Source of the DNA: a virus
Direction: 5' to 3' (one strand)
Virus record (IMG/VR): IMGVR_UViG_3300032294_003096
Span: 1-29,166 of that record
Length of the DNA stretch: 29,166 bases
The position numbers and the translations under genes were made by a program. Each line of letters starts with the position of its first letter. Positions within the stretch are counted from its first letter, which is position 1. Positions 3,815 to 28,314 of this stretch are shown here, piece after piece. Under the pieces are notes generated by a model. It did not search any database. It was given only the letters and a program-made list of their open reading frames with translations, and was not told the DNA's origin.

Positions 3815-4222
3815 TCATCCGGGAGGTATTACTTTATAACCTAATGATTGAAGATAAAAAATGCAACTTTCTTCTTTAGTTTGAAATTTATGCAATTCAT
3901 AATGTTCATCAGCATCTAATGCTATTAAGTTATTTGGTTTGTTATTAGTGGGATTTCCATCAATGTGATGAATATGTTCACCACAATATCCATTAAATGC
4001 TTCAAAAACAAGACGGTGAATCTTTCTATATTTTCTCTTTGAATTAATACAAATAGTTACTCCAAGATATCCACTTCCATTATCATGTGGATTTAACATT
4101 TTTATATTTTGATTTGTATTGTGGTATCTGTTAAAGTTTCTATTAGAATATATGTTACCATCTTCTCCTGCAAAATAACCAGAATAACTTGGAATAGGAT
4201 TTAGTTTCATCTTTATTTTCAT
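3815..4222 (-). CDS. NUMOD4-HNH homing endonuclease
   Basis: A 135-residue protein. The N-terminal NUMOD4 module, about residues 9-45, starts PIPSYSGYFAGEDGNIYSN (the usual form is W-x-I-x-G-Y-x-x-Y-x-V-S-x-x-G). It is followed by the strand GYLGVTICINSKRKYRKIHR and the HNH_3 core HHIDGNPTNNKPNNL (His85-His86, Asp88, Asn90, Asn98) after His69. It would nick or cut DNA as a mobile intron-type or free-standing homing nuclease. It is the only reverse-strand gene in the left 10 kb and separates a good early promoter from its apparent target leader, both signs of insertion. A second in-frame ATG, four codons downstream of the first (residue 5), is an alternative start. Confidence 0.88.
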   Translation of the reverse strand: MKIKMKLNPIPSYSGYFAGEDGNIYSNRNFNRYHNTNQNIKMLNPHDNGSGYLGVTICINSKRKYRKIHRLVFEAFNGYCGEHIHHIDGNPTNNKPNNLIALDADEHYELHKFQTKEESCIFYLQSLGYKVIPPG

Positions 4223-6641: not shown

Positions 6642-7274
6642 ATGTATAAAATTTATTTAATTGCAAATATTAAAAATAAAAAACAATATGTAGGTATTAC
6701 TAAATTTTCTATTGAAGAAAGGTTTTCTCAGCACGTTAAAAGGGGGTTTCTTTTAACAGAAGCAATCCAAAAATATGGAGAGCAAAATTTTTGGATTCAA
6801 TTAATCGAAGAAGTTGAATCTGCAGAAAGAGCATATGAACTAGAAATGTATTATATTAAAGAATATAATACAAAAGTGCCAAATGGGTATAATATAACTG
6901 ATGGTGGTGATGGAATTTTTGGATGGGAACCATCAGAGGAATACCGTAAAGAATGTTCAGAAAGGGTAAAACAACTTCATAATGAGAAAAAAGTAGGTAT
7001 GTATGGAAAAAAACATACAGAAGAAACTAAGAAAAAAATGAGCGATTCTCTAAGAGGAAATCAAAATTGTTTAGGAAGAATTCTTTCCGAAGATACTAAA
7101 TCTAAAATTTCATCATCACATAAAGGTAAAATTTTGAGTGAATCTACAAAAAATAAAATAAGCGAAAATCATCATAATGTATCTGGAGAAAAAAATCCTA
7201 TGTATGGAAAAAAACATTCACCTGAAACAATTGAAAAAATGAGACAAAAAGCACTAGCAAGGAAATCAAAATGA
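6642..7274 (+). CDS. GIY-YIG homing endonuclease with NUMOD3 repeats
   Basis: A 210-residue protein. The N-terminal GIY-YIG domain has IYLI (4-7) and YVGIT (16-20) in place of GIY and YIG, Arg27, the metal-binding Glu68 in ELEMYYI, and GYNITDGGDG at 82-91. Three NUMOD3-type DNA-binding repeats follow, at about 118-145, 148-172 and 187-205, marked by GKKHTEETK, GRILSEDTK/GKILSESTK and GKKHSPETI. It would make a site-specific cut and promote its own spread. It sits between phoH and the exonuclease gene, its stop overlaps the next ATG, and its last codons carry the ribosome binding site of that gene. A 19-base stretch encoding MYGKKH is repeated exactly (6998-7016 and 7199-7217). Confidence 0.92.
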   Translation: MYKIYLIANIKNKKQYVGITKFSIEERFSQHVKRGFLLTEAIQKYGEQNFWIQLIEEVESAERAYELEMYYIKEYNTKVPNGYNITDGGDGIFGWEPSEEYRKECSERVKQLHNEKKVGMYGKKHTEETKKKMSDSLRGNQNCLGRILSEDTKSKISSSHKGKILSESTKNKISENHHNVSGEKNPMYGKKHSPETIEKMRQKALARKSK

Positions 7275-12355: not shown

Positions 12356-12734
12356 TAGTAAGGAATTTTGCATAAGGAATTGAAAGCATTTCATCAAGTT
12401 CTTCATATCTAACAACGTGAAGTTTTCCTGCAACTTCATTCCAAGTATATTGTCTATATTTTCTCCAATGAAAATTAATTCCTCTAAATCCCCACGGTTC
12501 TATTGAAGTGCAAGCAATTAAAGGGTGTTGATCATATCTAAGATTTGGTGTTTTCGCATTGTAAATAAAGGTATAAAACTTTCCTACTTCTGGATATAAT
12601 GCTTCTTCCTTTAATACATCTATAATAATTATCATCAAGTCTTCAGGATCATTTGATCCTTCTTTCACAATTCTTTTTTTAATCTCTCTCATCCTTGGAG
12701 GTATATTGAGATATTGCCCAAAACCTTCTGCCAT
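12351..12734 (-). CDS. Hypothetical protein (127 aa) between gp4 and gp48
   Basis: The N-terminus is MAEGFGQYLNIPPRMREIKK, followed by a helical part (DPEDLMIIIIDVLKEEALY) and a beta-rich second half (GKFYTFIYNAKTPNLRYDQH, then GFRGINFHWRKYRQYTW). It begins inside the gp4 stop codon (TAATG) and is probably made together with gp4. It looks like a conserved structural or assembly protein of T4-like cyanophages, but I cannot assign a T4 counterpart. Confidence 0.7.
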   Translation of the reverse strand: MAEGFGQYLNIPPRMREIKKRIVKEGSNDPEDLMIIIIDVLKEEALYPEVGKFYTFIYNAKTPNLRYDQHPLIACTSIEPWGFRGINFHWRKYRQYTWNEVAGKLHVVRYEELDEMLSIPYAKFLTK

Positions 12735-13186
12735 TATTTGATACCTAATTCGTTTTCTGTGATTATGCGGAATTTAATCAGACGATCTTCGCACCATTCT
12801 TGAATTGATCTCCACTTTGACTGATTGATAGCATAAGTATTTACTTCATTGATGTATGTTTTAGATTTCTTTTTTCCTTGAATTGGTGGAACTGTTTGAT
12901 TCTTTGGTTTTATTTCTATTACATATTTTTGTATTTTACCATTATTTTCGAGGACTTCAATAATAAAGTCCGGAAAGTATCTACATACTTTTTGTTTTAC
13001 TGGATTATAATAAGGTATACAAAATTCTTCCGATCCATATTTCAATATGTTAGGTGAACGATCGCACCATTGCATAAACTTAAGTTCCCAGCTACTTCTA
13101 TAAACTATATTTTGTGGATTTCCAATATATTTTTCTGGATTTCTTGGATGAAAATATCCTTGATGGTATTTAGAATCACGCGGCAT
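12734..13186 (-). CDS. 4: Head completion protein gp4
   Basis: A 150-residue protein, the same length as T4 gp4 (also called gp50). It matches in order: HPRNPEKYIGNPQNIVYRSS (T4 has SKYRGDPKKITYRS), WELKFMQWCDRSPNILKYGS, EEFCIPYYNPV, CRYFPDFIIEV, YVIEIKPKNQTVPP and INEVNTYAINQSKWRSIQEW. The D-(x)n-IEIKPK pattern is a PD-(D/E)XK nuclease-like core. It finishes the DNA-filled head before the tail joins. The start MPRDSKYHQG at 13186 is chosen over an upstream in-frame codon because the family begins here and AAGGTTGG precedes it. The start overlaps the end of the NUMOD3 ORF by 11 bases. Confidence 0.92.
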   Translation of the reverse strand: MPRDSKYHQGYFHPRNPEKYIGNPQNIVYRSSWELKFMQWCDRSPNILKYGSEEFCIPYYNPVKQKVCRYFPDFIIEVLENNGKIQKYVIEIKPKNQTVPPIQGKKKSKTYINEVNTYAINQSKWRSIQEWCEDRLIKFRIITENELGIK

Positions 13187-13736
13187 TTTTCCAACCTTTA
13201 TGTGATTTATTTCTTCCATTAACAACATGCTGTAAGCACCCAATACTTAGATTATTTTCTTTTGCAAATTTAGTGAGGTTTTTAATTTCTACAATATTGC
13301 CTTCGGGAGAAAGTAATTTGTATTCTTTACTATTTTTATCGGATAACGCTTTTTTTGTACTCTCTAAACAAGGTTTACCTTTATTTGGACTTTGATTATT
13401 TTTGAACCATTCTTTTCTTTTATTTCTTTGCTTTTGTTTTGTTTCTTCTGAGTGAGTTTTCCCCCACATTGGATTTAATTCACCGAACCTTTTACTGTTA
13501 TACATTCCATTTTTTTCTCTATAATTTGCACAAGACATTCTAAACGAATCATTTTTACATAGTTCTAATGTGATATCCCTTAATTTTTCTTTAGTTTCTC
13601 TAGAATGTTTTTTGCCGTAAAACGGATTGAATTTTCCTTCATATCCGGAATATTCTTCATAGATTATTTCCGGTGGCGAATCAATATTAAATACTTCGTT
13701 TAATTTTTTAGTGTTAAATTTAATAATCTTTTTCAT
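13176..13736 (-). CDS. NUMOD3/NUMOD1 homing-endonuclease-type DNA-binding protein
   Basis: A 186-residue protein with NUMOD3 repeats at about residues 35-55 (NPFYGKKHSRETKEKLRD), 85-105 (NPMWGKTHSEETKQKQR) and 113-130 (SPNKGKPCLESTKKALS). A C-terminal IENR1/NUMOD1 helix-turn-helix follows: LLSPEGNIVEIKNLTKFAKE, NNLSIGCLQHVVNGRNKSHK, GW. No GIY-YIG or HNH catalytic motif is visible in the first 34 residues (MKKIIKFNTKK...), so it is either a fragment of a homing endonuclease or a DNA-binding remnant. It is the first gene of the leftward block and ends inside the gp4 start, supplying its ribosome binding site. Confidence 0.8.
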   Translation of the reverse strand: MKKIIKFNTKKLNEVFNIDSPPEIIYEEYSGYEGKFNPFYGKKHSRETKEKLRDITLELCKNDSFRMSCANYREKNGMYNSKRFGELNPMWGKTHSEETKQKQRNKRKEWFKNNQSPNKGKPCLESTKKALSDKNSKEYKLLSPEGNIVEIKNLTKFAKENNLSIGCLQHVVNGRNKSHKGWKNAA

Positions 13737-13829: not shown

Positions 13830-14705
13830 ATGCCTACACCAAGGTCAGTATCAGAAATTAAAACTAATTTACTTAGACCTGCTCTGACTTCTCATTTTGA
13901 GGTTAGAATTCCTATACCGGATAATGTTAAGAAGAATGTAATAGAAAAAGTAGGATATAGATTATCTTCTACAGATTTAGATCAATTGAATTTGATGTGT
14001 TCTGAGGTATCTTTACCTGGATCTTCATTAGCAACTTTAGAAATCAATAATGATTTTACTGGTGTAACTGAAAGGCACGCTCATAGAAGAATTTATGATG
14101 ATCGAATGGATTTTACTTTTTATGTTGATGCTGAGAAGTATCTACCGATTATCTTTTTTGAATCTTGGATGAAATATATTGCTGGAGAATCTGAAACTCC
14201 TGATCCAGTAATGAGAGGAGTTGGTACTAGGGACAGTAAGTACTTTTATAGAGTTAGATGGCCAGATAATTATGTCTCGCAAGGTTTACAAGTAATTAAA
14301 TTTGAGAGAGACTATTCTAGTCAATTGGTGTACGATTTTATTCGAGCATATCCAATTAGTATTCAATCAATGCCAGTTTCTTATGATTCTTCTTCATTAT
14401 TAAAGTGTACTGTTTCAATGACCTACATCAGATATGTTGTGACTGGCAGACCATATTCTCCAACTGATCCCAAACCTGTCGATGGTTCTCTACAAAGACA
14501 AGCAAATATAAATGATTTAATAGAAGCACAATTGCGACGTGAGGCAGAAGAAGGAATTATTCCGGGGCAACCCGGATTTAGTGATCCTAATCTCGAAGCA
14601 AGATTTCGAGCTGCTAATCAACCCACAAATCAGCAATTTGATATTAATGGAAGACCTATTATTGATATTGAAACTGATATTAACGGAAGACCTCTTAACT
14701 TTTAA
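13830..14705 (+). CDS. 54: Baseplate tail-tube initiator gp54
   Basis: A 291-residue protein of tail-tube-like fold. Landmarks are the N-terminal RPALTSHFEVRIPIPDNVKK, the strand MCSEVSLPGSSLATLEINND with the LPG turn typical of tube-like proteins, DDRMDFTFYVDAEKYLPIIF and AYPISIQSMPVSYDSSSLLK. The last 70 residues are a variable Gln/Pro/Asn-rich tail with a DINGRP repeat. gp54 sits on gp48 and starts polymerisation of the tail tube. No ribosome binding site is visible before the ATG. The assignment to gp54 (not the tube protein gp19) rests on length and on position next to gp26 and opposite gp48. Confidence 0.75.
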   Translation: MPTPRSVSEIKTNLLRPALTSHFEVRIPIPDNVKKNVIEKVGYRLSSTDLDQLNLMCSEVSLPGSSLATLEINNDFTGVTERHAHRRIYDDRMDFTFYVDAEKYLPIIFFESWMKYIAGESETPDPVMRGVGTRDSKYFYRVRWPDNYVSQGLQVIKFERDYSSQLVYDFIRAYPISIQSMPVSYDSSSLLKCTVSMTYIRYVVTGRPYSPTDPKPVDGSLQRQANINDLIEAQLRREAEEGIIPGQPGFSDPNLEARFRAANQPTNQQFDINGRPIIDIETDINGRPLNF

Positions 14706-14738: not shown

Positions 14739-15458
14739 ATGCCTTTACCAAAGATCTCTACACCAACGTATGAGTTGGAATTGCCATCAACCGGACAAAC
14801 AGTTCAATATAGACCATTTCTTGTCAAAGAAGAAAAGGTACTAGTAATTGCTTTAGAAAGCGAAGATACTAAGCAAATTACTAATGCTATTAAGAATGTA
14901 ATTAAAAATTGCATTCTTACGAAATCGATAAAAGTGGAAACATTACCTACCTTTGACATTGAATATCTTTTCCTCAATATTCGGGGCAACTCAGTTGGGG
15001 AAGAAATTGAAGTTAATATTATTTGTCCTGATGACGAAACAACGACAACTAAAGTTAATTTGAATCTTGATGATATTAAGGTTCAGAAGAATAAAGAACA
15101 TACAAATAGGATCAAAGTAGATTCAAGTATTATGATGGAAATGAAGTATCCGTCGTTGGATCAATTTATTAAGAATAACTTTGACTTTAATGACAGCAGT
15201 GCAATGGATCAATCCTTTGATTTGATTGCTTCTTGTATTGATAAGATTTATACTGATGATGAGGTATGGGCAGCAGCGGATGTTACTAAAAAGGAACTTG
15301 TGGAATTCTTAGAACAAATGAATTCATCTCAGTTTAAGGAAATTGAAAAGTTTTTTGAAACAATGCCAAAACTTTCACATAAAATTTCTGTGATTAATCC
15401 GAAAACTAAAGTTGAAAGTGAAGTTGTATTAGAAGGGTTAGCAAGTTTTTTCGCATAG
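14739..15458 (+). CDS. 26: Baseplate hub assembly protein gp26 (tail chaperone-like)
   Basis: A 239-residue protein of the T4 gp26 type (Pfam T4_baseplate family, by recognition). It starts MPLPKISTPTYELELPSTGQ, followed by VQYRPFLVKEEKVLVIALES and a helix ITNAIKNVIKNCI. A beta-rich middle holds EVNIICPDDE. A helical C-terminal domain follows (DQSFDLIASCIDKIY, ELVEFLEQMNSSQFKEIEKF). The family acts in hub assembly and is not necessarily in the finished virion. The last sense codons AGT TTT TTC GCA contain a slippery heptamer just before TAG, and the -1 frame is open for 65 more codons, so a longer 303-aa product is likely. Confidence 0.83.
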   Translation: MPLPKISTPTYELELPSTGQTVQYRPFLVKEEKVLVIALESEDTKQITNAIKNVIKNCILTKSIKVETLPTFDIEYLFLNIRGNSVGEEIEVNIICPDDETTTTKVNLNLDDIKVQKNKEHTNRIKVDSSIMMEMKYPSLDQFIKNNFDFNDSSAMDQSFDLIASCIDKIYTDDEVWAAADVTKKELVEFLEQMNSSQFKEIEKFFETMPKLSHKISVINPKTKVESEVVLEGLASFFA

Positions 15459-15479
15459 CCCTAGTCCATATGGACTTAG
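15446..15479 (+). promoter_or_regulatory. Programmed -1 frameshift signal
   Basis: The slippery heptamer T TTT TTC lies at 15446-15452 in the gp26 frame, two codons before the TAG. After an 8-base spacer comes a hairpin: CT-AGTCC (15461-15467), loop ATAT, GGACT-(T)-AG (15472-15479, one bulged T). Its core AGTCCATATGGACT is a perfect palindrome. Heptamer, spacing and stem all fit known -1 recoding sites. Confidence 0.75.
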
Positions 15480-15649
15480 AGAGTTATTTTAGACTCAATT
15501 TTGCCTTGATGCAGTATCATAAATATTCTTTGACAGAGATTGAAAATATGATGCCTTGGGAACGAGACATCTATATTGCTTTACTGCAGCAGCATCTTGA
15601 AGAAGAAAAATTAAAACAACAGCAATCTAATGGCAATCAATTCTTCTAG
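15452..15649 (+). CDS. gp26 C-terminal extension made by -1 frameshift (T-like)
   Basis: After slippage, translation continues RIALVH and then MDLESYFRLNFALMQYHKYS up to the TAG at 15647-15649, adding 65 residues to gp26 residues 1-238. The extension contains LTEIENMMPWERDIYIALL and a charged C-terminus (EEEKLKQQQ), resembling the T part of G-T tail assembly chaperones, which recruit the tape measure to the tube subunit. An ATG at 15470 could in principle start a 59-aa free protein, but it has no ribosome binding site and lies in the hairpin loop. Gene 51 follows gene 26 in T4, so this may occupy its place. The end overlaps the next gene by 20 bases. Confidence 0.75.
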   Translation, partial: RIALVHMDLESYFRLNFALMQYHKYSLTEIENMMPWERDIYIALLQQHLEEEKLKQQQSNGNQFF

Positions 15650-17789
15650 TATTGTACCGATAGCAAAAAAGGAGAATGGTCGTGCCTTAGTCAATGAAAA
15701 GATTGATGAAAGAATATTAAGATTACTTGGTTTAGAAGAAGTTTTTGATATTGATTATGATACATATTTGTCTCTTCTTAAAGAGGCAATGGTCAAAGGT
15801 AGGATGGTCAAAAAAACAATTCCTACCGAAGAAATTATGCTCTTAAATGAAGAGTATAAAAGAGTTAAGAGTAAAAAAGATAAGGGTAGATTTAAGATTA
15901 AAAAAATTACAGCAGCAAGTTTCAAGAAAGGAACTGCTGCTGATGTAAATTTAGGTAATAGAAAACTTCTTACTGGAATTAAACCTCTTGCTCTTCCTCC
16001 TGCCATTAATAAAATGTCAGGTGAAAATGATCTCCGTGAAATTATAGACCTTCTTGGGGAGATTATAAAAAATCTAACACAACAAAATAAAGCACATAAA
16101 GATTCTACTGAAAGATCTAGGAAAGAAGCAGAGAATGCTAAGAGAGCAATATCGGAATCAAAGTTAGAAAAGGGATTTAAATTAGCGATTAATGCAGCAA
16201 AAAAAGTTATTGCTCCGATTAAATCATTGCTATCAAGAATTATTGATTTCTTTATGGCAATTTTCTGGGGCAAAGTCTTCCTCAAACTTTTAGATTGGTT
16301 TGCTGATCAAGAAAACAGAAAGAAAATTGATTTTTTATTCAGATTCTTAGGTGATCACTGGCCAAAACTTTTAGCACTTTACTTAAGATTTGGCACTGGT
16401 CTCGGTAAGTTTGTTGGTGGATTTACGAAGTTGGTTTTCTTTGGTACAAGAAAATTGCTTCAAGTTGTTGCTGGTATGGTTGGCGCAAAGGGAGCGGCAA
16501 GATTTCTTGGTGGTCGTGGTGGAAAATTAGTTGCTGCGGGATTGCAAGTAGCAACAACTGTTGGAACTACTATGGCATTGAGTGGTGGTATTGAAAATTT
16601 TGTTGGTGGTGAAAAAGAAGAAGATTTTAAAATCCCTACATTTTCTGGTGGAGGATTATCAAGTCTTAGAAAGTTATTTGGATTTTATGGTGGCGGTCCT
16701 GGTCGCGTAAGTGGTCAGAAAGGTGTTGATAAGATACCTGCGATGTTGAGTGATGGTGAGTTTGTTATGTCTCGTGGGGCAGTTCAAAAGTATGGAGTTG
16801 AAACACTAGAATCTATGAATGCTGCAGGTGGAGGAACAAACAGACCTAAGATGATTAGCGGGACTACTTATGCTGCTGGTGGTGGATTGATTGGATACGC
16901 TGGTGATATGATTAAACATCACGAAGCATTATCATCATTACAACCAGGACAGAATTATCATGTATCAGTAAAAAGTCCTGAGTATAAAAAGATTTCTAAT
17001 ACAACTAAAATTTATCCTTATCTTGATAGTGTTAATGTTCCTACTATTGGGTGGGGTGCGACTTATTATGATAGTTTAATGAAAGGATCTAAAAAAGTTA
17101 AAATGAGTGATCCTCCAATTACTAAGTCTGCAGCAGATAATCTATTAACTAAACATCTTTCTCAACTTATTCCATTGGCAAAATCTAAACTTCCTTTGTG
17201 GAATAAAATGTCTCCTCAACAGCAGGGGACAGTTGTTTCTTTTCTCTATAATGCTGGTCCAAATTCTATTGATCCTAAAGGTCCATATCCAAAGTTTTCT
17301 AGAGCATTGATTGCTGGTAATATGAGTGAGGCATCTAGAAATACTACTAGAGGTGGTCCAGCAGTTTCAAGAATTAATGAAGAGAGAAAATTATTAAGTA
17401 CTGGTCCTTTGGATCTAACCAAAGTTAAACAACCAACGAATATGACAGCAAAACCAAAGAAAGAACCAAGTATATTTGATAGACTTTCTTCTGGTTTCTC
17501 TTCAATGTTTGGGAAGGATGGTTCTATGATTTCTCCTCCAGCACAAGCAAAGGAACCTAGATATGCTAAAGGCGGAATGGTTCCTGCTAGATTATCAAAG
17601 GCACCAGCAAATATCAAAAACATTTCTCCTCCATCAAAACCTTCTGTAGTTGTAAGAACTATGAATAGTTTTAAACCAGAAAATATGAATATCCCTGGAG
17701 CACCTGGATCGCCAAGACTTCCTTCATTCAGTTCTGCTCGTATTGATAAAGAAAGAAGAAGAATTCTTGATATTCATAGTATCGGATAA
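15630..17789 (+). CDS. Large hub/tape-measure-like protein with GH24 lysozyme domain
   Basis: 719 residues. The N-terminal 190 residues are helical and charged with a coiled-coil-like stretch (STERSRKEAENAKRAISESK). A hydrophobic region follows (SRIIDFFMAIFWGKVFLKLL, LLALYLRFGTGLGKFVGGFT; about 200-320). Near residue 365 is the motif VDKIPAMLSDGEFVMSRGAV, common in tape-measure and hub proteins. At about 425-590 lies a T4-lysozyme-type muramidase with candidate Glu432 (HHEA), Asp466 (YLDS) and Thr472 (PTIGWG), plus VVSFLYNAGPN. The Glu-to-Asp distance is about 25 residues longer than in T4 lysozyme. It probably cuts cell-wall glycan at the tail tip during infection. It directly follows the frameshifting gp26, where long-tailed phages place the tape measure. 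Confidence 0.75.
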   Translation: MAINSSSIVPIAKKENGRALVNEKIDERILRLLGLEEVFDIDYDTYLSLLKEAMVKGRMVKKTIPTEEIMLLNEEYKRVKSKKDKGRFKIKKITAASFKKGTAADVNLGNRKLLTGIKPLALPPAINKMSGENDLREIIDLLGEIIKNLTQQNKAHKDSTERSRKEAENAKRAISESKLEKGFKLAINAAKKVIAPIKSLLSRIIDFFMAIFWGKVFLKLLDWFADQENRKKIDFLFRFLGDHWPKLLALYLRFGTGLGKFVGGFTKLVFFGTRKLLQVVAGMVGAKGAARFLGGRGGKLVAAGLQVATTVGTTMALSGGIENFVGGEKEEDFKIPTFSGGGLSSLRKLFGFYGGGPGRVSGQKGVDKIPAMLSDGEFVMSRGAVQKYGVETLESMNAAGGGTNRPKMISGTTYAAGGGLIGYAGDMIKHHEALSSLQPGQNYHVSVKSPEYKKISNTTKIYPYLDSVNVPTIGWGATYYDSLMKGSKKVKMSDPPITKSAADNLLTKHLSQLIPLAKSKLPLWNKMSPQQQGTVVSFLYNAGPNSIDPKGPYPKFSRALIAGNMSEASRNTTRGGPAVSRINEERKLLSTGPLDLTKVKQPTNMTAKPKKEPSIFDRLSSGFSSMFGKDGSMISPPAQAKEPRYAKGGMVPARLSKAPANIKNISPPSKPSVVVRTMNSFKPENMNIPGAPGSPRLPSFSSARIDKERRRILDIHSIG

Positions 17790-17798
17790 TAAAAAGAT

Positions 17799-20750
17799 AT
17801 GGCACAAAAATTACTTCCGCCAGCAAAAATTGATCCATCAAAACTTTTAGGGGGAAGTTCCCTAGCGACTACTATTGAGAGGATACGCTTTAAATCAACT
17901 GTTGTAGGAGATCGCTCTCTTGAACTCGGTATCATTAAAAAGCAAGTCATAAGAATTAATGATTTAGTAAAGACAAATACTTTACTTAAGGTAAAGGAAG
18001 AAGAAAGAAAGAGAAAACTTGCTGAACAAAAAAGATTTAGCGAAAGAGAAGAGAAACTTGAAAGTTCAAAAGAGAATATGGGAGATAAAATACCATCACT
18101 TCCATCATTACCTAAATTGGGATTTCTCGATAGAATTAAAAGTTTTCTTTTTAATATTTTTCTTGGATATATTTCTCTTCGTTTGCTTCCATATCTACCA
18201 AAACTTGCTGGTGTTGTTGGGACAATTGTAAAAGTTCAAGATGTTATTATTGATATTTCTGGGAAGATATTAAATGGTCTAGTTTCTTTTGTTGATAAGG
18301 CATATGAAGTTCATGATAAAACTAGGAAGTTCTTAGGGGATCTTGGTGGCGAAAGTTTCACCAAGACGTTTGATGGATTTATTGGTGCGATGGATAAAGT
18401 TATCCTAGCATCTATCGCAGCTGCTATTGCTTTTGGAGAACTTCGTGATACTGGTGGTCCTAGTCCGGATGGTTTTGGTGGAGGAAGAAGGGGTCAAATA
18501 AGAGGTGATATTATTGACCAGGGATTTTTTAATAAAAAAACTGGTCGTTGGCAGGGAAGTTTTAGTGGAAAAAATGGTGCTTATAGAACTGATGAAGCAG
18601 CAAGAAGATACGCACGAAGATTTGGAAGAGATGCTGCTGTTCGTAGATTTGGTGAAAGGGGAGTAGGATATCTTGGTGGCAAGTATGCTAGATCTCAGGC
18701 AACAAATCTTGCAAGGAGGGGTATTATTGGTCTCGCTGGTAAAGGTGGAACAAAATTAATCCTTGGAACAGTGAGACCTCTGCTTAAAAGACTTCCAATT
18801 ATTGGAGCATTACTTGATTTTGGTTTATCTGTAGCTCTTGGAGAGGATCCTGGAAGAGCGGCATTTAAATCAATTGGTGCGGGACTTTTGGGTTCTGTTG
18901 GCGCTGCTGTTGGTTCTCTTGCTTTTGGTTTTGGTGGAATTGTTGGTGGTATTCTTGGAAGCATTGGTGGAGATGCTATTGGTGGAGCTTTATATGATAT
19001 GTTTTTTGGTAATAAAAATCCAGCATCAAAACAAAAAGTTCAAGGTCTTGCTCAAGGTGGTACAGTAACCAGAGGTGGTCAATTACCATCATCAATAAAA
19101 AGAACAGTACAAAAACCAAAAATTACTAGAAGTCTAAAGGTACAAACTACTGAAGTAAAACCTGGACAATCTGTTGGTGGCGAAGATAAAATTGAAAAAG
19201 TATTTCCTGAGACAGAAACAAGAAATTCTGATACTGTAAATCCACTTGGTTATATGAAGAGTTCTTATAAAACTGCTTCATCTACTCTTGGGTTTGGTGG
19301 AATAGCGGCAATCTTTATGAAAGCTCAACTTGGAGAACAACCATCCAACGTTGATTATCAAAATGCTGCTGATGGATTAACTGCTTGGATGCAGAGAACT
19401 CTTGGTGGAGGAATTCAAAGAACTGGTGGTGCTTTTGCTGGTGGTGGAGAAGTTGATGTAGGAATGTTTAGTAATGGTGATGATATGAAAAATATCATTG
19501 CTAAATCTCTTCAAGAAAGTGTTGCTCCAAAGGTTGAGGATATGATTAATGATTTGAAAAAGCAGATTGAATTAAAACCTAGGGAAGTTAAAAAGGAAAA
19601 GGAAGTTAGTGAACCTTCTCCTGGGGAAGAATTGGGTAATGCTACAGAAATGATTGGCGGTGCTAGATTGTTTATGGATCTTGGATTCCCTCCTTTAGCG
19701 GCTGCCATACTTGCCGGTAATGTACAGGCAGAATCTGGATGGAAAGGTCAAAGAACTCCTTGGGTTCTCAATGATGGTGCTGGAACTAATAAAGGTTTGA
19801 TAAGTTGGAATAGAAGTAGAATTACTAATGCGGAAAAATTCTTGGGGAAACCTCTTGAAACTGCTAGTAATGCTGAGCAAGTAAAATGGATTAAAGAGGA
19901 ATTGAGGCAATATGGACTTCTTGATGAGTTTATGGATCCAAATAGAACTGAAGCACAGTTAAAATCAGATTCTTACAAATATATTGGGTGGGGAATAGAG
20001 GGAGATAGATGGAAATATTCATCTCGAATTTACTCCGCTCTTCAGAGGGGTGAGAGAGGAAGTTATGTTCCCTCTACAGCGGCGACTTTGGGAACTGGTA
20101 GCGGAAGTCTTGCCGCAGCAAAATCTTTAGCTGAAAGTATGGGACTTCAGCTCACCAGCTATGTTCGTCCGGGAGATCCTGGATATCACGGTAAAGGTAG
20201 AGCAATGGATTTCCAGACAGTAGGCGCTCCTGGTAATACTGGAACACCAAGTCAATTGGCGTATGCGCAAAAAATGGTTTCTCAATATGGTACTAGTTTG
20301 AAACAGTTGATTTATACTCCATTAGGATTTGGTATTTCTAACGGAAAAAGAGTTAAACTTGATTATTGGGGAGATGAGACAAATTCTGAACATTATCATC
20401 ATGTTCACGTTGCCTTTAATAAAGGTGGTAAAGTTAAAGGAAAGAGAGGTATTGATCAAATACGCGCAATGTTGACTCATGGGGAATTTGTCATTGATGT
20501 TGACTCAACCACTGCATTGGAGAAAAATTTTCCAGGATTTTTAGATGCTCTTAATAAAGCAAATTATGATGGTGCGATAAATGTTTTGAGATCCTATGCT
20601 CAATACGAACAGGGATCTACTATACACGCAGTAGTCGATGAAAAATTAATACCAGTTCCAATCCCAATTTCTTCCCCGCAGCAATCTCCAGTTGTTATTT
20701 CTTCTGGATTTGGTGGTGAAGATAGTATGTCTTCCAATTATATGAGGTAA
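17799..20750 (+). CDS. Large hub/tape-measure-like protein with two wall-hydrolase domains
   Basis: 983 residues. Residues 1-100 are charged and helical. Hydrophobic and Gly/Ala-rich segments follow (about 110-200 and 320-410, e.g. GLLGSVGAAVGSLAFGFGGI). At about 620-760 is a lysozyme-like tail domain with candidate catalytic Glu645 in NVQAESGWKG and GLISWNRSRI. At about 780-875 is an M15-type D,D-carboxypeptidase with HxxGxAxD (His797, Asp804) and HVH (868-870), the zinc ligands. The C-terminal part repeats the hub motif GIDQIRAMLTHGEFVIDVDS. Together these would cut both glycan and peptide parts of the cell wall. It is one of two adjacent large proteins; which, if either, is the true tape measure (gp29 counterpart) is not settled by the sequence. 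Confidence 0.75.
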   Translation: MAQKLLPPAKIDPSKLLGGSSLATTIERIRFKSTVVGDRSLELGIIKKQVIRINDLVKTNTLLKVKEEERKRKLAEQKRFSEREEKLESSKENMGDKIPSLPSLPKLGFLDRIKSFLFNIFLGYISLRLLPYLPKLAGVVGTIVKVQDVIIDISGKILNGLVSFVDKAYEVHDKTRKFLGDLGGESFTKTFDGFIGAMDKVILASIAAAIAFGELRDTGGPSPDGFGGGRRGQIRGDIIDQGFFNKKTGRWQGSFSGKNGAYRTDEAARRYARRFGRDAAVRRFGERGVGYLGGKYARSQATNLARRGIIGLAGKGGTKLILGTVRPLLKRLPIIGALLDFGLSVALGEDPGRAAFKSIGAGLLGSVGAAVGSLAFGFGGIVGGILGSIGGDAIGGALYDMFFGNKNPASKQKVQGLAQGGTVTRGGQLPSSIKRTVQKPKITRSLKVQTTEVKPGQSVGGEDKIEKVFPETETRNSDTVNPLGYMKSSYKTASSTLGFGGIAAIFMKAQLGEQPSNVDYQNAADGLTAWMQRTLGGGIQRTGGAFAGGGEVDVGMFSNGDDMKNIIAKSLQESVAPKVEDMINDLKKQIELKPREVKKEKEVSEPSPGEELGNATEMIGGARLFMDLGFPPLAAAILAGNVQAESGWKGQRTPWVLNDGAGTNKGLISWNRSRITNAEKFLGKPLETASNAEQVKWIKEELRQYGLLDEFMDPNRTEAQLKSDSYKYIGWGIEGDRWKYSSRIYSALQRGERGSYVPSTAATLGTGSGSLAAAKSLAESMGLQLTSYVRPGDPGYHGKGRAMDFQTVGAPGNTGTPSQLAYAQKMVSQYGTSLKQLIYTPLGFGISNGKRVKLDYWGDETNSEHYHHVHVAFNKGGKVKGKRGIDQIRAMLTHGEFVIDVDSTTALEKNFPGFLDALNKANYDGAINVLRSYAQYEQGSTIHAVVDEKLIPVPIPISSPQQSPVVISSGFGGEDSMSSNYMR

Positions 20751-27648: not shown

Positions 27649-28314
27649 ATGGCAACTGCTCAAAACAGTAATAATACAAAACTTGGATCTTCACCTAAAG
27701 TAGGAAGAGAAGAACTTCTTGCCGACAATATTTCCAAAAATAATACTTCAAAACAGAACTACACTGCGATTAGATATGGCAATGATCACGGTTCAATTAG
27801 TTTTGGGCATATTCACAAGCAAGGAGATGTAACTTCTGATGTAATGCTTCAAGCATCTGATGGAAGACACTCTATTATTTTGGACAATGATGGTCCAAGA
27901 AAAGCGTGTACTCAGATTACTGCCCCAGGTAGAATTGCAATTGAATCTGGACAAGATTCAACAGAAGCGGAGGAAACTCTTTTTATTCACGCTCATAATG
28001 GCAATATTGCTATTATTGCATCAAATGGAAAACTCAGACTTCAGGGAACTGATATTGAATTAGTTGCTGTTGGTGAAGGTGGTTCTAAAGGAAATGTAAC
28101 AATAGATGCATCTCAGGGGATTAAGTTAGATGCAAAGAATGTTGTAGTTAATGGAAAGAGTACATTGACCTTATGTTCACCAGGAACAGTGCAACTTTCG
28201 GCAAATGGTTGTATGACTTTATACGCATCTTTAATTCGTGGAGTTAGCGATGCTGTTGCAAATAAAGATTCTAAAGTTGGTGGAAGAAACGTTCAAAGAA
28301 AAAACAACAAGTAA
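27649..28314 (+). CDS. Beta-helical spike/needle protein, like the gp5 C-terminus
   Basis: 221 residues. Residues 60-190 are a series of short strands with a period of about 8-12: DVMLQASDGRHSIILDND, GRIAIESGQDS, GNIAIIASNGKLRLQGTDIE, GNVTIDASQGIKLDAKNVVV, NGKSTLTLCSPGTVQLSANG, CMTLYAS. This is the pattern of the trimeric beta-helix at the C-terminus of T4 gp5 and of VgrG-type spikes. The separate OB-domain gene upstream (22399-24117) lacks such a region, so this gene may supply the membrane-piercing needle. No ribosome binding site is seen. Confidence 0.65.
   Translation: MATAQNSNNTKLGSSPKVGREELLADNISKNNTSKQNYTAIRYGNDHGSISFGHIHKQGDVTSDVMLQASDGRHSIILDNDGPRKACTQITAPGRIAIESGQDSTEAEETLFIHAHNGNIAIIASNGKLRLQGTDIELVAVGEGGSKGNVTIDASQGIKLDAKNVVVNGKSTLTLCSPGTVQLSANGCMTLYASLIRGVSDAVANKDSKVGGRNVQRKNNK

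Follow-up and report, generated by a model that had tools for sequence, protein, structure and literature searches.

Phage lambda makes its tail assembly chaperone as a short form, gpG, and a long form, gpGT, that arises by −1 frameshifting; both are encoded close to the tape measure gene, and an earlier review describes G-T frameshifting as widely conserved in long-tailed phages, T4 excepted (PMC5009743). For T4 itself, gp26 and gp51 both appear among the hub assembly chaperones (PMC3004832). Vladimirov, Gautam and Davidson (Virology 2022, 566:9–15) identified the tail assembly chaperones of the T4-like group; passages elsewhere that cite their work mention T4-like phages in which the two forms have a gene each, short and long (PMC10885494), and poly-T frameshift signals in T4-like TAC-N genes (PMC12846349). 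In Vandenendeviridae and Andersonviridae, TAC-N carries a poly-T site at its 3′ end and the −1 frame is uninterrupted, in a region that is usually mis-annotated (PMC12846349).

Here we describe a T4-like cyanophage locus whose gp26 gene, judging from sequence comparison, very probably directs synthesis of both a short and a long chaperone, the long one via a −1 slip on T TTT TTC. The frameshift strategy has already been described in T4-like phages and the idea is not new; the new detail here is a three-part, dnaX-like signal, together with widespread mis-annotation. The abstract of the 2022 work of Vladimirov et al. is said to name T4 genes 26 and 51 and to report frameshifting conserved in several T4-like groups.

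Slippery site at the 3′ end of gp26

The window, by which we mean the whole stretch of DNA analysed, is a 29,166-base virus record, a fragment from a T4-like cyanophage; the features discussed are collected in Table 1. Among the matches listed, the closest named relative of its gp26 is that of Synechococcus phage S-SM2 (Kyanoviridae), at 83% identity. For comparison we used 87 distinct cyanophage loci, made up of 80 IMG/VR loci and named isolates.

Table 1. Features of the gp26 locus and the genes that follow it, in window coordinates
Feature	Position	Strand	Remarks
gp26 / short tail assembly chaperone (TAC-N), 239 aa	14739..15458	+	PF12322 E 3e-76; phrog_150 E 8e-81
Shine-Dalgarno-like AAGGG, presumed stimulator	15433..15437	+	8 nt 5′ of heptamer
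Slippery heptamer T TTT TTC	15446..15452	+	TTT TTC in gp26 frame; 87/87 cyanophage loci, also distant phages
−1 frame extension (TAC-C domain), 65 codons + stop	15452..15649	+	phrog_634 E 4e-29
gp26 stop codon TAG	15456..15458	+	one GCA codon between TTC and stop
Hairpin CTAGTCCATATGGACTTAG, palindromic, presumed stimulator	15461..15479	+	8 nt 3′ of heptamer
Internal ATG, start of ‘gp51’ in relatives’ annotation	15470..15472	+	within hairpin loop region
719-aa gene	15630..17789	+	lysozyme domain PF00959 E 2e-9; weak tape-measure phrogs from E 7e-5
983-aa gene, tail-lysozyme-like	17799..20750	+	PF18013 E 8e-6, below its cut-off; tape-measure phrog_9570 E 9e-8 (weak)

In every one of the 87 loci the 3′ end of gp26 reads NNT TTT TTC NNN stop. 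In codon tests that ignore kinship among the loci, both Phe codons of the heptamer are fixed (TTT in 87/87, TTC in 87/87), most other conserved Phe columns of gp26 being a mixture of TTT and TTC in the same loci. The codon in front of the pair varies both in codon family and in the amino acid encoded (AGT 42, TCT 38, GGT 3, AAT 2, GAT 2), yet its final T is kept in 87/87. Since the Phe codons are fixed, and the preceding codon varies but keeps its T, the heptamer is under selection beyond that on the protein sequence, and its conservation goes far beyond what chance would give.

In a scan of the window's major + strand ORFs, the only other classical heptamer near a stop was A AAA AAC at 28299–28305, which is close to the stop of ORF 27649–28314, with the next ORF in the −1 frame. 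It was dropped as a second frameshift site, and is probably there by chance, because the next ORF has an AAGGAG and an ATG of its own.

The −1 frame

The −1 frame of the window is open from 34 nt 5′ of the gp26 stop codon to 15646 and is closed by TAG at 15647–15649, giving 65 codons from the slip (translation RIALVHMDLESYF...ENMMPWERDIYIALL...), which together with gp26 make up a predicted 303-aa long form. The same frame is open across the gp26 stop in all of the cyanophage loci (87/87), and the extension measures 59–66 residues in 86 of them. The remaining locus, L009, has 42 residues, which could reflect a true truncation or a fault in the assembly. Codon-like constraint in the −1 frame is already seen ahead of the internal ATG: in the six codons that separate it from the slip, second positions are least variable and the encoded pattern is R, I/V/L, A/G/S, M/L, x, H. 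The extension is predicted to form three helices.

Elements flanking the heptamer

An AGGG motif lies 8–9 nt upstream of the heptamer in 85/87 cyanophage loci and is maintained through alternative codon pairs, GAA GGG or GAG GGN. Codon use would lead one to expect it in 36%, and elsewhere in these genes Glu-Gly pairs have it in 7/20 cases (Fisher p = 4e-10, a value that is indicative because the sequences are related).

Downstream, the 5-bp core stem of the hairpin is 80% paired across 86 sequences, as against 14–51% when it is slid, and is perfect in 43 of the 86. Covariation amounts to 49 double-change cells, where shuffles average 15 and, with kinship ignored, 0 of 2000 of them reach 49. 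The most stable 40-mer along the locus is formed by the 40 nt starting from the gp26 stop (mean −9.0 kcal/mol). RNAalifold run on the 86 sequences returned no consensus structure, so the case for the hairpin rests on the direct pair counts and the per-sequence energies. It is possible, though we say so tentatively, that AGGG, T TTT TTC and the hairpin over the ATG act as a three-part recoding signal that sets the ratio of the chaperone forms, the hairpin also suppressing independent translation of the extension.

An earlier note on this DNA had pointed to the heptamer in the gp26 frame before the stop, to an 8-base spacer and a palindromic hairpin, to an internal ATG in that hairpin without a ribosome binding site, and to a −1 frame open for 65 codons with a conserved-looking domain. 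Its coordinates and spacing proved right. The heptamer and the open frame recur in every cyanophage locus, the domain has a phrog profile match, and the window has no Shine-Dalgarno-like sequence 5′ of the ATG, which lies in the loop region. The note had also proposed looking for heptamer, hairpin and −1 ORF in other T4-like cyanophages, and that comparison gave the first and last of these throughout and hairpin pairing with covariation.

Relation to T4 gp26 and gp51

The PF12322 core stands alone in T4 gp26 and is joined to the extension domain in T4 gp51, and the two T4 proteins are mutually similar (E 2e-6). A profile built from the predicted fusions aligns with T4 gp51 without gaps through the slip junction; an extension-only profile matches T4 gp51 residues 207–244 and has no match to T4 gp26. 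By these alignments, T4 gp26 is the short form and T4 gp51 is a one-ORF version of the predicted long form. In T4 the two genes are on opposite strands and gene 26 ends in GAG TTC TTT with no heptamer, so T4 encodes both forms separately. Because gp51 corresponds to the whole long form, cyanophages would make from one frameshifted gene what T4 makes from two. The earlier idea that the extension takes the place of T4 gene 51 is borne out as far as the match to the gp51 C-terminal domain goes, and has to be amended in that gp51 is the entire long form.

With both a PF12322 core and a gp51-type C-terminal domain, the locus belongs to the T4 gp26/gp51 family. One PF12322 match was found in the 29-kb record, which is a fragment; across 692 phage records the match occurs at one place per record, in a survey that could miss a copy as diverged as T4 gp51. 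The relation to T4 supports reading genes 26 and 51 of that phage as the G/GT pair that T4-type phages possess, the two-gene state of T4 and the cyanophage frameshift being two routes to the same protein pair.

Chaperone fold and gene neighbourhood

An AlphaFold2 model of gp26 (mean pLDDT 78) found its best solved fold matches, the top three of 665 aligned chains, in 3fgx, 2ob9 (HK97 tail assembly chaperone) and 3klu, at Z 7.2–8.0 and confined to residues 1–96; after these came a PICI-like element's protein at Z 5.0 and a non-phage match at 4.3. YqbN 3klu and 3fgx we take to be chaperone relatives that group with 2ob9. We hold with moderate confidence, as such Z scores can reflect a common arrangement, that the modelled N-domain of gp26 is G-like, with a tail assembly chaperone fold. 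A sequence search of the PDB with the gp26 profile gave no match, solved chaperones included, and Foldseek alone on the gp26 model gave no E-value below 0.7.

The tail tube gene lies upstream of gp26 (13830–14705). Downstream, the 719-aa and 983-aa genes adjoin, each with a lysozyme-like domain and weak tape-measure matches. The earlier note had seen here two large hub/tape-measure-like genes; two large lysozyme-domain genes do adjoin, and with their weak matches either may be the tape measure gene. Taken by sequence, gp26 and gp51 look like a tail assembly chaperone pair of the G/GT type. The window also carries homing-endonuclease-like ORFs (HNH or GIY-YIG type) at 13176–13736 (−), 6642–7274 (+) and 3815–4222 (−), the first of which overlaps the head closure gene ORF 12734–13243.

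Occurrence in distant phages

The same arrangement, T TTT TTC or T TTT TTT together with an open −1 frame is also found in Melnitz-3, BUCT-ZZ01, Moby (Stenotrophomonas), in AsFcp_1 and Aeh1 (Aeromonas), in KVP40-type Vibrio phages, in a Desulfovibrio phage, in phiM19 (Sinorhizobium) and in OLIVR5 (Agrobacterium), many such distant phages having about 30% protein identity or less. Ackermannviridae and related phages have a weaker site (ATTTTC, CTTTTC), with the −1 frame open and the extension domain recognisable. In seven loci of this kind (L087, L100, L103, L104, L106, L107 and L108) the heptamer is degraded and an ATG overlaps the gp26 stop (TAATG). In loci of the Ackermannviridae type the slip may be weaker, translation may reinitiate, or the two may occur together.

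Probable production of the long form

That gp26 makes a G/GT-style pair by −1 frameshifting, the central proposal of the earlier note, is supported by what comparison among genomes shows: heptamer conservation, −1 coding constraint ahead of the internal ATG, and the way the predicted fusion matches T4 gp51. Most ribosomes would stop at 15456 and release the 239-aa short chaperone, while a minority would shift back by one base at T TTT TTC and continue translating to 15646, yielding the 303-aa long form; the upstream AAGGG and the downstream hairpin would aid the slip. As in lambda gpG/gpGT, the short and long forms would work together as chaperones in loading the tape measure and the tail tube. 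What we infer in this scheme is slippage in vivo, the effect of each stimulator, the product ratio and the assembly role.

The extension could instead be a small gene in its own right, annotated in several database records as ‘gp51 / baseplate hub assembly catalyst’ and translated from its own start codon by reinitiation past the gp26 stop, with no frameshift. An ATG stands at extension codon 6 in 74/87 cyanophage loci, and annotated genes of Vibrio, Ackermannviridae and Stenotrophomonas phages start at an ATG overlapping the stop. We nevertheless consider it highly improbable that the extension is made in this way. The common ATG is not preceded by a Shine-Dalgarno-like match in 48 of the 74 loci, and 7/87 loci contain no ATG within extension codons 1–12, among them S-CAM8, S-RIM2, ACG-2014a, ACG-2014d and ACG-2014j. 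Moreover, a standalone gene beginning at the internal ATG would exclude the six constrained −1 codons in front of it. Such a gene leaves the invariant heptamer unexplained, its annotated starts are inconsistent or missing, and T4 has the extension domain solely within a fusion. A standalone gp51 gene as sole product was rejected as the best reading on the missing ATGs, the missing ribosome-binding sites and the −1 constraint; the ATG at 15470 is probably not the main route to the extension.

Frameshifting to the long form might also coexist with weak reinitiation at the internal ATG, yielding a free extension protein, as the retention of that ATG in most loci and the frequency of stop-overlapping ATGs in distant relatives would allow; but that ATG has disappeared from several lineages and mostly has no SD-like motif, and the hairpin palindrome CATATG offers another explanation for its conservation, so we think this arrangement unlikely. 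RNA polymerase slippage on the T6 run, rather than ribosomal frameshifting, would be in keeping with a homopolymeric site. Transcriptional slippage generally needs longer runs, however, and across the 87 loci the run stays at six, always ends in C and keeps an exact codon register, while an SD-like element and a hairpin fit ribosomal slippage; we regard a transcriptional origin of the long form as scarcely credible.

Consequences for annotation

The proposed ribosomal frameshifting on the heptamer has consequences for how cyanophage records are read. The extension gene is absent from the database entries of S-CAM8, ACG-2014d and ACG-2014j, and in those of S-RIM2 and ACG-2014a it starts about 50–93 nt 3′ of the gp26 stop. 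In our set the affected cyanophage records are L089 (S-CAM8), L090 (S-RIM2), L092, L093 and L096. Because public records omit the extension or start it late, the annotated ‘gp51’ of cyanophages is unreliable. Cyanophage entries for ‘gp51 / baseplate hub assembly catalyst’ are indicated to be mis-annotated C-terminal domains, and where the extension coding sequence is wholly missing from a record, core-gene counts are affected. Because it is conserved, the site lends itself to testing −1 frameshifting in cyanobacteria in a natural setting; a literature search on cyanophage ribosome profiling found nothing useful.

Comparison with known systems

The dnaX gene of Escherichia coli has an SD-like stimulator about 10 nt upstream, the heptamer A AAA AAG and a hairpin downstream. 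The cyanophage site likewise has three parts, an internal SD-like element at a distance (8–9 nt) close to that in dnaX, a heptamer and a downstream hairpin, but its heptamer is T TTT TTC, and its frameshift would yield a longer product whereas that of dnaX yields a shorter one. The cyanophage protein resembles lambda gpG/gpGT and the HK97 type in its predicted short and −1 frameshifted long forms, encoded close to candidate tape measure genes, and its gp26 N-domain model is similar to HK97 2ob9. It differs in its slip sequence (G GGA AAG in lambda), in its T4-type lineage and in having no sequence match to solved chaperones. Like the T4-like chaperones of Vladimirov et al., it combines the gp26 core PF12322 with a gp51-type C-terminal domain; T4, unlike the cyanophages, has two genes on opposite strands and no heptamer. 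As in Vandenendeviridae and Andersonviridae, the cyanophage locus has a poly-T site, an uninterrupted −1 frame and a mis-annotated region; the conserved motif in those other phage families is GTTTTT (PMC12846349), whereas in cyanophages it is T TTT TTC.
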